Assembly: GCA_022844275.1 (NCBI GenBank)
Contig: JALHMB010000006.1
Coordinates: 401,001-465,000, forward strand
DNA length: 64,000 nucleotides
Source: Hyphomicrobiaceae bacterium
Lineage (GTDB): Bacteria > Pseudomonadota > Alphaproteobacteria > Rhizobiales > Hyphomicrobiaceae
Direction of reading: 5' to 3'
Positions 5,402-9,832 of the stretch are shown here, piece by piece. Numbering within the stretch: the first letter of the stretch is position 1; each line of letters starts with the position of its first letter. A model generated the notes under the pieces. That model ran no database searches and had not been told where the DNA came from. It saw only the letters and a program-made list of their open reading frames with translations. Position numbers and translations under genes: made by a program.

Positions 5402-7018
5402 ATGGGCCGCCTCATCCGCCTCCTCCTTCTCATCACCAGCCTTGCGGTCGGAGGCTTCGCTGTGCCTCACCGCGCAGCTGCGGCACCTGAGGACCTGGCG
5501 GCCGGCCTGGCGCTGATCGCCAAGGACAGCTTCAACGATACGCTTTCAGGCATCGACGCCATTGCGCGCTCCGGCGTCCCGCATGCCGCGGCCCTCGTCG
5601 AAGCGCTGCAGGATCGCCGCATGCTCATCGATACGGCGAACCAGAAGGTCTTCTATCGCGAACCAGCCGGTACCGTCCGCGAGGCGCAGAGCAACGAGGT
5701 CGTCGCGAGCCCACCCGCAGGCCTGACAGCCGTCCGCCTGAACAACCGCGTGCGCGGGGCGGCAAGCGCCGCGATCGGCGCGCTGAGCCTCATGAATCCT
5801 GATCCGCAGCGCCGCATCCAGGCTGCGCAGGCCGTGATGAAGTCGCGCGATCCAACCGCTCTGGCCGTACTCGACGCAGCACTCGCCGCCGAAAAGTTGC
5901 CCAATGTGAAAGCCGAGCTCCAGCTCGCCTGGGCCGCCGTCACATTCAGCAAGTCCGACGCCCCCCTCGACAAACGCCTGGAGGCTGTTGCTCTCCTGAA
6001 AGATGCAAGGTCGCGTGAGGCCGTTTCCATTCTCCGCTCGCTTCCTGCCGATGCCGCAGCTCCCTTGCGCGAGTCGACCACGAGCGCCATCAGCTCCATC
6101 GAGCAGCGGCTCGCACTCTGGGGCTATGTGCAGAACGTCTGGTACGGCGTGTCGCTCGGCTCCGTGCTGCTGATCGCGGCCATCGGCCTCGCCATCACCT
6201 TCGGCGTCATGGGCGTGATCAACATGGCCCATGGCGAGATGGTCATGCTCGGCGCCTACACCACTTTCGTCGTGCAGGAATTCTGCCGCACGAGCGCGCC
6301 GTGGCTTTTCGACTACTCGCTGGTCGCCGCTATCCCGCTCGCCTTTCTCGTTGCCGGCGGCGTCGGCGTCGCCATCGAGCGCGGCGTGATCCGCCATCTC
6401 TACGGCCGGCCACTCGAGACGCTTCTCGCCACATGGGGCATCAGCCTCATTCTCCAGCAGGCCGTACGTACGGCCTTTGGCCCGACGAACCGCGAGGTCG
6501 GCACGCCGCAGTTCATGTCCGGCGCCATGGAGATCGGCGGTCTCGTCATCACCTGGAACCGGCTCTACATCGTCATCTTCGCCGGGCTCATCTTCGTCGG
6601 GCTGCTGCTCGCCCTGCGCTATACGTCGCTCGGTCTTCACATGCGCGCCGTTACGCAGAACCGGCGCATGGCCTCCTCGATGGGCATCCGAACCGGCCGT
6701 GTGGACGCATTGACGTTCGGCCTCGGATCGGGGATCGCGGGCCTTGCCGGCGTCGCGCTCTCTCAGATCGACAACGTGAGCCCGAACCTCGGCCAGAGCT
6801 ACATCATCGACAGCTTCCTCGTCGTCGTGTTCGGCGGCGTCGGCAATCTCTGGGGCACGCTCATCGGCGCCCTCTCGATCGGCATGGCCAACAAACTGCT
6901 CGAGCCCTATGCCGGCGCTGTGCTGGGTAAGATCCTGTTGCTCGTGGCGATCATCGTGTTCATCCAGAAGCGGCCGCGCGGCCTGTTCGCACTCAAGGGA
7001 AGGGCCGTCGAGGCATGA
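5402..7018 (+). CDS. urtB: Urea ABC transporter, permease subunit UrtB
   Basis: A 538-residue inner-membrane permease of the LivH family. Residues 1-27 form a signal peptide (MGRLIRLLLLITSLAVGG). Residues 28 to about 235 are a soluble, helical, alanine-rich region with repeat-like segments (VRGAASAAIGALSLMNPDP, VMKSRDPTALAVL), presumably periplasmic; this N-terminal extension is normal for proteobacterial UrtB and absent from LivH. The membrane part begins at about WYGVSLGSVLLIAAIGLAI and carries the INMAHGEMVMLGAY motif. GGAG lies eight bases before the ATG. Its stop overlaps the urtC start (ATGA at 7015-7018). Confidence 0.95.
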   Translation: MGRLIRLLLLITSLAVGGFAVPHRAAAAPEDLAAGLALIAKDSFNDTLSGIDAIARSGVPHAAALVEALQDRRMLIDTANQKVFYREPAGTVREAQSNEVVASPPAGLTAVRLNNRVRGAASAAIGALSLMNPDPQRRIQAAQAVMKSRDPTALAVLDAALAAEKLPNVKAELQLAWAAVTFSKSDAPLDKRLEAVALLKDARSREAVSILRSLPADAAAPLRESTTSAISSIEQRLALWGYVQNVWYGVSLGSVLLIAAIGLAITFGVMGVINMAHGEMVMLGAYTTFVVQEFCRTSAPWLFDYSLVAAIPLAFLVAGGVGVAIERGVIRHLYGRPLETLLATWGISLILQQAVRTAFGPTNREVGTPQFMSGAMEIGGLVITWNRLYIVIFAGLIFVGLLLALRYTSLGLHMRAVTQNRRMASSMGIRTGRVDALTFGLGSGIAGLAGVALSQIDNVSPNLGQSYIIDSFLVVVFGGVGNLWGTLIGALSIGMANKLLEPYAGAVLGKILLLVAIIVFIQKRPRGLFALKGRAVEA

Positions 7019-8166
7019 TCACGCGCGCACTCCTCGAGAATGACCGCACAGGCAAGTGGTTCCTGGCGATTGTTCTCGGCCTCGCCATCGTCGTACCGAT
7101 CCTGCATCTCGCGGTGCCGCCGTCGTCCCCCTTCCACGTCTCCACGGCGACGCTGGCGCTGCTCGGCAAATACCTTTGCTTCGCGCTCCTCGCCCTCTCG
7201 CTCGATCTCGTGTGGGGCTACTGCGGCATACTTTCGCTCGGCCATGGTGCCTTCTTCGCACTAGGCGGTTACGCCATGGGGATGTACCTCATGCGCCAGA
7301 TCGGGACGCGGGGTGTGTACGCGCATCCCGTGCTTCCTGACTTCATGGTCTTCCTCAACTGGAAAGAGTTGCCATGGTTCTGGTACGGTTTCGAGAACGC
7401 TTGGTTTGCCTTCCTCATGGTGATGGCCGTCCCCGGCCTGCTCGCGTTCGTGTTCGGCTGGTTCGCCTTCAGAAGCCGCGTGACCGGCGTCTATCTCTCG
7501 ATCATCACGCAGGCGCTGACCTACGCGCTGTTGCTGGCGTTCTTCCGCAACGACATGGGCTTCGGGGGCAACAACGGTCTCACGGACTTCAAGGACATCC
7601 TGGGCTTTCCAGTTCAGGCGAACACGACGCGAGCCGCACTCTTCGCAGCCTCGGCGCTGGCGCTGGCTCTCGGATACCTCGCGGCGCGGGCGATCGTCGC
7701 GTCCCGGCTCGGTAAGGTCCTCGTCTGCATTCGTGACGCGGAAAGCCGAACCCGCTTCATCGGCTACCGCGTCGAGCACTACAAGACCTTCGTCTTCACC
7801 GTCTCGGCCGTCATGGCCGGCATTGCAGGCGCGCTCTATGTGCCGCAGGTCGGCATCATCAATCCGAGCGAGTTCAATCCTGCGAATTCCATCGAGGTCG
7901 TGATCTGGGTCGCCGTCGGCGGACGCGGCACGCTTGCGGGCGCGGCCCTCGGCGCCGTGCTCGTGAACTTCGCCAAGACGACCTTCACGACAGGATTCCT
8001 CGCGCCCTACTGGCTCTTCGCGCTCGGCGCCCTGTTCGTTATCACCACGATCTGGCTGCCCAAGGGCATTCTCGGCAAGTTCAACGATCTCTGGGAGCGC
8101 TGGAGGTCCTCGCGGGTTGCGAAGCCCGAGCAGAAGCCGGCACCCGTCCCTCAGCTTGCGGAGTAG
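7015..8166 (+). CDS. urtC: Urea ABC transporter, permease subunit UrtC
   Basis: A 383-residue LivM-type permease. About ten hydrophobic helices are visible, with the family landmarks YLCFALLALSLDLVWGYCG and LSLGHGAFFALGGYAMG near residues 60-90 and VGIINPSEFNPANSIEVVIW near residue 280. It pairs with UrtB to form the urea channel of the transporter. Translation is coupled to urtB by a four-base ATGA overlap. After its stop come 172 bases of inverted repeats before urtD, unlike the tight packing elsewhere in the operon. Confidence 0.95.
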   Translation: MITRALLENDRTGKWFLAIVLGLAIVVPILHLAVPPSSPFHVSTATLALLGKYLCFALLALSLDLVWGYCGILSLGHGAFFALGGYAMGMYLMRQIGTRGVYAHPVLPDFMVFLNWKELPWFWYGFENAWFAFLMVMAVPGLLAFVFGWFAFRSRVTGVYLSIITQALTYALLLAFFRNDMGFGGNNGLTDFKDILGFPVQANTTRAALFAASALALALGYLAARAIVASRLGKVLVCIRDAESRTRFIGYRVEHYKTFVFTVSAVMAGIAGALYVPQVGIINPSEFNPANSIEVVIWVAVGGRGTLAGAALGAVLVNFAKTTFTTGFLAPYWLFALGALFVITTIWLPKGILGKFNDLWERWRSSRVAKPEQKPAPVPQLAE

Positions 8167-8180
8167 GAGCTAGTGAGATG

Positions 8181-8336
8181 ATCGAGAAATTCGACAAGTC
8201 TCGGGGTACGGTGTGGAGCGAATTTCTCGATCTGAATCGCACTAGAAAACATATGATTCTAGTGTCCCTTATGATTCCGAAGTTCGCTCGGGACACCAGC
8301 ATCCAGGCTAAGCGAACCTCGGAATCGGGACACTAG
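8181..8336. repeat. Three nested or overlapping inverted repeats between urtC and urtD
   Basis: IR1: ATCGAGAAATTCG (8181-8193) with its perfect complement at 8219-8231, 13 bp. IR2: ACTAGAA (8241-8247) with TTCTAGT (8257-8263), centred on CATATG. IR3: CTAGTGTCCC (8259-8268) with GGGACACTAG (8327-8336), extended inward by 8273-8288 against 8311-8326 (15 of 16 paired) after a four-base bulge. IR2 and IR3 share 8259-8263 and cannot form together. A further GGGACAC at 8290-8296 in the IR3 loop could compete for the left arm. The right arm of IR3 contains the only ribosome-site-like GGGA and ends two bases before the urtD ATG. It could be a cis-acting RNA switch or a mobile palindromic element. Confidence 0.75.
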
Positions 8337-8338
8337 CC

Positions 8339-9118
8339 ATGACGACGCTAGTTCCCGCCGATGCACCCGCTCCTCTGACGCCGAGCCTCCTCTATCTCGA
8401 CGGCGTCACCGTCTCGTTCGACGGCTTTCGCGCGCTCAACGCACTTTCACTGCAGATCGCACCGGGTGAGATGCGCGCCATCATCGGCCCCAATGGCGCC
8501 GGCAAGACGACGATGATGGACGTGATCACCGGCAAGACGCGCCCCGACACCGGCGAAGTGCTTTTCGATCATGGCATCGACCTCACGCGTCTCGACGAAG
8601 CCGCGATCGCCAATCTCGGTATTGGCCGAAAGTTCCAGAAGCCGACCGTTTTCGAGAGCCACACGGTCGAGGACAACATCCTCCTCGCGCTCAAGGGCGA
8701 TCGACGCGCGCGCAGCGTGTTGATGGCCCGCACGAGCGCGGATGAAGCACGCCGCATCGACGAAATCCTGGAAACTGCCGGTCTCTCCGCCCAGCGCGAT
8801 CGCCTCGCCGGGTTGCTGAGCCATGGCCAGAAGCAGTGGCTGGAGATCGGGATGCTGCTCGCACAGGATCCCAAGCTCCTGCTCGTCGACGAACCCGTTG
8901 CCGGCATGACCGACGCCGAGACGGAAGCTACCGCGGCGTTGCTCAGGCGCATTTCCGCCGCAGATCATTCCGTCGTCGTCGTCGAGCACGACATGGCCTT
9001 CGTTCGCGCACTCGGCGTCAAGGTCACCTGCCTGCACGAAGGATCGGTGCTGGCAGAAGGTGCCATCGACACAGTTTCGGAGAATCCTCGCGTCATCGAG
9101 GTCTACCTTGGGCGCTGA
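8339..9118 (+). CDS. urtD: Urea ABC transporter, ATP-binding subunit UrtD
   Basis: A 259-residue LivG-type ATPase. Walker A is GPNGAGKTT near residue 50, the signature is LSHGQKQWLEIGMLL (a LSHGQ variant usual for UrtD), and Walker B is LLLVDEPVAGM. The conserved YLDGVTVSFDGFRALN near the N-terminus is typical. No alternative start codon is available before this motif, so the ATG at 8339 is the start. Its only ribosome-site candidate is GGGA at 8327-8330, inside the right arm of a long inverted repeat, so initiation may depend on RNA folding. It hydrolyses ATP together with UrtE to drive urea uptake. Confidence 0.95.
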   Translation: MTTLVPADAPAPLTPSLLYLDGVTVSFDGFRALNALSLQIAPGEMRAIIGPNGAGKTTMMDVITGKTRPDTGEVLFDHGIDLTRLDEAAIANLGIGRKFQKPTVFESHTVEDNILLALKGDRRARSVLMARTSADEARRIDEILETAGLSAQRDRLAGLLSHGQKQWLEIGMLLAQDPKLLLVDEPVAGMTDAETEATAALLRRISAADHSVVVVEHDMAFVRALGVKVTCLHEGSVLAEGAIDTVSENPRVIEVYLGR

Positions 9119-9136
9119 TGGACAGGAGAGCACAAC

Positions 9137-9832
9137 ATGCTGAAGGTCGAGGACGTCGACCTGCACTACGGCGCTGCGCAGGTGTTGCGAGGTGTAAACC
9201 TCGAAGTGCGCAAGGGTGAGGTGACCTCGCTCATGGGCCGTAACGGTGTCGGCAAGACGACGCTTCTGCGTGCGATTGCGGGTCATCATCCGGTGAGCGC
9301 AGGGCTCATCGAGTGGGATGGACAGACGCTCAATGGTCTGCCGCCTTACGAGCGGGCGCGGCGCGGCATCGCACTCGTCCCGCAGGGGCGCGAGATCTTT
9401 CCCCTGCTCACCGTCGCCGAGAACCTGCAGACGGGTCTTGCGCCGCTCAAGGGCGAAGATCGCCAGATCGACGATGAAATCTTCACGCTGTTTCCCGTGC
9501 TGAAATCCATGCTGCGCCGGCGCGGCGGCGACCTCTCGGGCGGCCAGCAGCAGCAGCTCGCGATCGGCCGCGCGCTCGCCATGCGTCCGAATCTGCTCGT
9601 CCTCGATGAGCCGACTGAAGGCATCCAGCCCTCGATCATCAAGGACATCGGCCGCGCCATCGATTACCTGCGCAAGAAGGGCGAGATGGCCATCCTGCTC
9701 GTGGAGCAGTATTTCGAGTTTGCGCGCGATCTCGCCGACCGCTATGCGGTCATGGAGCGCGGTCAGGTCGTGCTTTCGGGTACGCGCGCCGAGATGGTCG
9801 AAGCCGACGTGCGGCGCAGGCTGTCGGTGTAA
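9137..9832 (+). CDS. urtE: Urea ABC transporter, ATP-binding subunit UrtE
   Basis: A 231-residue LivF-type ATPase. Walker A is GRNGVGKTT, the signature is LSGGQQQQLAIGRAL, and Walker B with its D-loop is LLVLDEPTEGIQPSI, all typical of UrtE. It starts 18 bases after urtD, with GGAG just upstream. This is the last urt gene. No urease genes (ureABCDEFG) follow in this window, so urea breakdown must be encoded elsewhere, if present. The next gene rightward is a secreted NTF2-like protein. Confidence 0.95.
   Translation: MLKVEDVDLHYGAAQVLRGVNLEVRKGEVTSLMGRNGVGKTTLLRAIAGHHPVSAGLIEWDGQTLNGLPPYERARRGIALVPQGREIFPLLTVAENLQTGLAPLKGEDRQIDDEIFTLFPVLKSMLRRRGGDLSGGQQQQLAIGRALAMRPNLLVLDEPTEGIQPSIIKDIGRAIDYLRKKGEMAILLVEQYFEFARDLADRYAVMERGQVVLSGTRAEMVEADVRRRLSV

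Follow-up and report, generated by a model that had tools for sequence, protein, structure and literature searches.

Why a run of strong inverted repeats should stand between urtC (7015–8166, forward strand; NCBIfam TIGR03408, 436.6 bits) and urtD (8339–9118, forward strand; NCBIfam TIGR03411, 372.9 bits), among urtA–E neighbours that are genuine by NCBIfam, is the question raised by this locus, for which the initial annotation of the window (the whole stretch of 64,000 nucleotides analyzed here) had offered two answers: an RNA switching between structures that hide and expose the urtD start, or a palindromic mobile element that had landed between the two genes. The latter is strongly supported by dispersed copies, by the short urtC–urtD gaps of congeners and by IS630-like ends, and we put at roughly 90%, judging by sequence, the probability that the insert is a copy of an IS630-type non-autonomous transposon (MITE) that entered at the TA of a CTAG. 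What had appeared to be a urea-operon riboswitch is thereby recast as the footprint of a transposon whose insertions are dated, and the case serves as a warning that strong, even covarying, hairpins 5' of a start codon can derive from mobile DNA.

Architecture of the insert

The inverted repeats described earlier are all present between urtC and urtD, their arm lengths being in need of slight correction only: the first (IR1) is indeed perfect (100% complementary), spanning 14 bp instead of the 13 bp initially given (8180–8193/8219–8232); the second (IR2) is centred on CATATG as stated, with arms of 8 rather than 7 bp (8240–8247/8257–8264); and the long third one (IR3) resolves into a 10-bp arm pair (8259–8268/8327–8336) and a 16-bp arm pair at 94% (8273–8288/8311–8326). 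The third GGGACAC was located at 8290–8296, and the right arm of IR3 does end two bases 5' of the urtD ATG (8339) and hold a purine-rich GGGAC (8327–8331).

These three repeats are parts of one dispersed element, a 167-bp two-hairpin unit (8170–8336, forward strand) bounded by CTAG at 8170–8173 and CTAG at 8333–8336. Its left hairpin (A; 8170–8245, forward strand; −31.4 kcal/mol), which contains IR1, pairs an outer arm at 8170–8194 with an inner arm at 8218–8245 carrying a 3-nt bulge, and its right hairpin (B; 8259–8336, forward strand; −41.6 kcal/mol), which is IR3, pairs an inner arm at 8259–8287, with a 4-nt bulge, with an outer arm at 8312–8336, the two being separated by a 13-nt spacer (8246–8258, forward strand). 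IR2 is built into this arrangement, because both inner ends, read outward, are CTAGTG, and it consists of the inner ends CACTAG and CTAGTG facing each other across the spacer. No transposase gene fits inside the 167 bp, the longest stop-free run being 54 codons.

Copies and distribution

The genome carrying the window (G000) holds 40 full-length copies with 79–100% identity (40 scored among 73 candidates), and a 23-base left-end pattern (at most 3 mismatches) occurs 50 times in it, with 109 occurrences in the congener G003 and 78 in G006, the reversed control pattern giving 0 matches; the pattern scan of the named genomes yielded at least 107 stretches with the element pattern. At E 0.001, matches were obtained in 16 of 60 related genomes, including 5/5 of the genus (own genome counted), and in none of 24 genomes from other families, nor was the element matched in the plasmid and phage collections (distant mode, E 1e-5). 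Among the 80 matches listed, the sources are Hyphomicrobium and MAGs labelled Hyphomicrobiaceae, Hyphomonadaceae, Rhizobiales, Hyphomicrobiales or Pseudomonadota.

An alignment of 34 of the G000 copies displays constant CTAG…CTAG borders, two stems, variable loops and unrelated flanks, each stem being composed of a 25-base outer arm paired with an inner arm that bears a 3- or 4-base bulge. The two outer ends, left and right, form an inverted repeat (15/22 bases past CTAG) and the stems are folded back, so that the unit can be described as four related arms forming two hairpins. Stem cells are paired in 97.2% of cases, and 8 pairs carry double-sided changes (1.5 expected from shuffles; 0/500). 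Once near-duplicates, one inverted artefact and short flanks had been removed, 101 of the 106 detected placements were left (38 of ~50 in G000 and 63 of ~108 in G003, the G003 set being partly chosen by end sequence), of which 71 are exactly 167 bp long and 86 have the CTAG end.

Single-hairpin copies exist as well; a lone right hairpin (1498–1578, G000:C2:242684) lies between two apparently co-directional genes, just 5' of an ATG; lone hairpins might thus be mobile themselves or be left behind by a deletion. In G006, a stretch of about 9 kb (within G006:C95:29000–41000) holds four copies of the element.

Insertion site and empty sites

All four congeners have a urtC–urtD gap of merely 9, 10, 10 or 11 bp without the element, and an insert is likewise missing from the other 17 loci examined (21 other loci altogether), with gaps of up to ~38 bp among those printed. 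The initial annotation had asked whether the gap is conserved in other urt operons, which it is not, and had held that many dispersed copies of the arms coupled with no conservation at urtD would favour a mobile palindrome, which is precisely the combination encountered (many copies; 0/21 other loci). Joined across one CTAG, the flanks of the insert (GAGCTAGCC) form a 9-bp gap that is identical to the one in G002 (GACCAAGCC) at 7/9 positions.

A broader empty-site comparison drew on 22 copies from the 34-copy G000 alignment, with the 30 returned congener loci covering 14 of these 22 sites. In these flank alignments, the query of which already contained the CTAG, exactly one CTAG was seen at the junction in 6/30 alignments (4/14 sites), and no exact CTAG was found in the congener examined at 10/14 sites; several of the remaining loci show a one-base variant of CTAG and some lack any resemblance. 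The single-CTAG empty sites and the 9-bp empty gap are what insertion at TA with duplication of that TA leaves behind, the presumed target duplication being the TA at 8171–8172 within the left terminal CTAG and the TA at 8334–8335 within the right one. Should TA alone be duplicated, the element proper would measure 161 bp (8173–8333), and, with G as the first and C as the last base of the element, the sequence does not distinguish a 2-bp (TA) from a 4-bp (CTAG) duplication.

Three of the four sites examined for sharing are also occupied in G003, and therefore both older and younger insertions exist. Between same-site copies in G003 and G000, double-sided changes are seen in both hairpins, with the outer CTAG turned into CTCG along with an inner CTAG turned into CGAG. 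Simple target duplication does not predict such joint changes of terminal base pairs and inner arms (CTCG matched by CGAG), as an outer TA of that origin alone would be expected to vary independently of the inner arm; possible causes are gene conversion, hairpin templating and repeated insertion.

The IS630 link and the probable mover

The genome G006 contains two identical IS630-family copies, each starting and ending at CTAG, whose left end agrees with the right (B) end of the element at 19/22 bases past CTAG and whose right end agrees with the left (A) end at 17/22, the crossed comparison giving 14 in either case and 0/20,000 shuffles doing as well for either end. The same assignment of ends holds for the IS630 of G029 (17 vs 14 and 14 vs 9 of 22); that of the congener G004 has one good (16/22) and one weak end (12/22, with 109/20,000 shuffles as good), that of G013 offers a single end-like sequence, and those of G031, G009 and G040 have no element-like ends above shuffle level. 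The transposase itself was assigned to IS630 by NCBIfam NF033545 (288 bits) and Pfam DDE_3. At G006:C84 (158–2505), the identical IS630 copies form a head-to-tail pair with one CTAG in common, and the start of the transposase is apparently in a different reading frame from the remainder.

Matches to an IS630 transposase occur in 5/16 element-bearing genomes vs 2/44 others (Fisher p 0.012), which leaves 11/16 element-bearing genomes without one; neither G000 itself nor G001–G003 gave a match, and PF13358 is absent from G000 and G003. The mover is therefore absent or lost in these genomes and has to be inferred, an IS630-family transposase being probably the one. MITEs are commonly found without their cognate transposase in the same genome, and its absence from G000 is no proof for the species.

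The course of events proposed is that a MITE of the IS630/Tc1-mariner kind, multi-copy in this genome and its congeners, would have targeted a CTAG lying between the stop of urtC and the start of urtD, at its TA, which was duplicated so as to leave CTAG at either end; each terminal inverted repeat would bring along an inner copy of itself, folded back, so that two hairpins, each bounded by CTAG, stand next to each other; and urtD would thus have been deprived of its nearby ribosome site and made dependent on the weak, paired GGGAC of the element's right end. The element is a new member of the IS630-type MITE family, ordinary in kind and unusual in its two-hairpin build.

A different mover has to be considered too, since two palindromes per unit, an extragenic location, many copies and the presence of single-hairpin copies are all reminiscent of REP/REPIN-type elements, whose mover is a RAYT (IS200-like tyrosine) transposase. 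Such an origin is, however, very improbable: PF01797 was detected in only 2/16 element-bearing genomes (G007, with an internal stop, and G013) and in 0/5 of the genus, and the CTAG target duplication and IS630-like ends also speak against it. It was rejected on the distribution of PF01797, no RAYT having been found in the host.

RNA folding and the proposed urtD switch

The predicted fold is stronger than chance, with an energy of −82 kcal/mol vs −57.5 kcal/mol (sd 4.4) for shuffles (z −5.5; 0/200 equal). The other of the two initial answers was a cis-acting RNA switch evolved for UrtD synthesis, in which IR2 and IR3 would alternate and thereby hide or expose the urtD start. The repeat geometry is as that proposal described it, the full fold has GGGAC in a paired state, and for RNA prefixes that stop at 8300 and 8310, short of a complete IR3, the minimum-energy fold includes IR2, so that, according to these folding models, IR2 can form ahead of complete IR3 during synthesis. 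In the fold of 8130–8420, however, IR3 has a pair probability of at least 0.97 and IR2 one of at most 0.03, and forcing IR2 incurs a penalty of 4.7 kcal/mol, which answers the suggested comparison of the two energies to the detriment of the switch; the third GGGACAC, supposed to compete for the same left arm, fares even worse, with its forced pairing costing 13.1 kcal/mol.

Nor does the comparative evidence favour a switch. The same structure stands beside many unrelated genes, none of the 21 other urtC–urtD loci has it, and IR2 is nothing other than the facing inner ends of the element. Covariation, the absence of which was to weaken the switch model, does exist among the dispersed copies, but it is neither specific to an RNA strand nor tied to urtD: one-sided stem changes in the 101 copies comprise 56 GU and 53 AC mismatched pairs (sense copies 30 vs 22), neither RNA strand being preferred, and the stems are therefore kept symmetrically for both strands, as fits DNA, mobile copies or decay and does not fit a one-strand transcript. 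A search of Rfam over 7000–9500, with E allowed to reach 10, gave 6 matches, none of them near its gathering score. Of the properties expected from a riboswitch or an attenuator, neither conservation at urtD, nor two similarly stable folds, nor an RNA-level pairing constraint was found. An evolved, conserved urtD switch is mostly refuted by these data and appears extremely improbable, and a regulated one, for which no signal is known, is not supported.

Probable consequences for urtD

The insertion into the urt operon is real, and it possibly has consequences. At the end of urtC, GGAGTAGGAG (8160–8169, forward strand) is the probable original ribosome site of urtD, a function suggested by GGAGTAGGA, which in G002 lies at the urtC end, 7 nt 5' of the urtD ATG; the insertion adds 167 bases between this probable old site and the ATG, which is now 170 nt away. 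The sole nearby ribosome-site-like sequence is the GGGAC on the right end of the element (8327–8331, forward strand), and it is fully paired in the full predicted fold; its kind is weak, with a mean anti-SD duplex energy of about −4.2 kcal/mol for B ends (vs −0.1 kcal/mol for A ends), short of the −5.9 kcal/mol that is the median of 49 genes in the window. With the nearby ribosome site lost and the weak GGGAC paired, UrtD synthesis is probably lower, or less coupled to that of UrtC, than in the congeners, as far as such folding and duplex models can tell. Lower or delayed UrtD synthesis may well be a side effect of the insertion, which is still compatible with the idea of a switch. A simple scan of 8000–8500 gave neither a terminator nor a promoter.

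Placement beside neighbouring genes

None of the 101 copies lies inside a gene according to a simple gene caller, and in 31 of them the terminal CTAG provides the TAG stop of the neighbouring gene (up to 19 of 41 copies are on a stop codon in G006, for which 41 of ~78 placements were counted). In G000 and G003 taken together, a start codon follows 0–20 nt beyond the B end in 33/74 cases vs 3/47 for the A end (Fisher p 4e-6), the gene starts being those of a simple caller based on codon usage, and no fewer than 3 copies being common to the two genomes; by genome, the counts are 15/26 vs 1/19 in G000 and 18/48 vs 2/28 in G003. Random orientation would be expected because CTAG is its own complement.

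This raises the question of whether the element is kept as a useful part of operons, in which one of its ends supplies a stop codon, the other a weak ribosome site, and the ratio of neighbouring proteins is thereby set. The excess of B ends 5' of start codons, their anti-SD advantage over A ends, the stops supplied, and the orientation between co-directional genes (sense 51 vs antisense 24) are all in line with such a role. The bias is, however, missing from G006 (2/20 vs 2/17; sense 13 vs antisense 10), the orientation in G000 alone is not significant (sense 18 vs antisense 11), the B end is weaker than native sites, no RNA-level constraint is seen in the GU vs AC mismatches, and the purging of harmful insertions accounts for the bias without any benefit, all of which makes a useful part unlikely. 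The simplest reason for the bias is that only the B end offers a likeness to a ribosome site, and insertions in the opposite orientation were lost. As G006 failed to show it, the one-sided start-codon placement is to be taken as a lead, not a law. It is similarly doubtful that the genus possesses a portable intergenic module that inserts at the CTAG of an upstream stop codon and, in one orientation, would supply a TAG stop and a hairpin-masked ribosome site, uncoupling or resetting the protein ratio within an operon (here that of UrtC and UrtD) in a species-specific manner. The strict CTAG target, the IS630-matched ends and the one-sided placement in two genomes make the element a good natural test case for the selective filtering of insertions within operons.

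Relation to known elements

The IS630 of Shigella sonnei reportedly inserts at the TA in 5'-CTAG-3', according to the title of a 1991 paper by Tenzen and Ohtsubo that PMC2170065 cites; it shares its target with the present element, but is autonomous, with a transposase gene. The repeat unit of pneumococcus (RUP), together with IS630-Spn1, is alike in its small size, many copies, IS630-like ends and insertion at TA, with passages of two papers describing RUP ends as resembling an IS630-family element and its insertion as occurring at TA (PMC2229807; PMC3049150); RUP is, however, a simple repeat of 107 bp, whereas the present element has 167 bp, four end-like arms, two hairpins and a supposed mover that was not found in the host. 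ERIC and Correia/NEMIS are, in the passages of PMC2229807, hairpin-forming MITEs co-transcribed with their neighbours, the mRNA effects of ERIC being orientation-dependent; theirs is an effect on mRNA decay, whereas the one suspected here concerns access to the start site, and the likeness is one of description.

MITEPsy1 of Pseudomonas syringae, as described in part of PMC3189936, likewise inserts at CTAG with duplication, differing in its 100 bp, in ends of the GGAAGG… type and in a presumed IS5-type origin. The RIME and the A/B/C palindromes of Sinorhizobium are intergenic palindromic repeats from Hyphomicrobiales according to passages of PMC2573895, and they too are likened to the present element by description. 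In the passages of the review PMC10969869, the terms “ribosome binding”, “Shine-Dalgarno” and “stop codon” do not occur, and among the papers listed from the open-access literature searched there was none on a Hyphomicrobium element of such a type, which is not proof of absence. As for the target itself, CTAG is scarce in the window (39 vs 91 expected from dinucleotide shuffles), and 4 of these 39 are within the urtC–urtD element.
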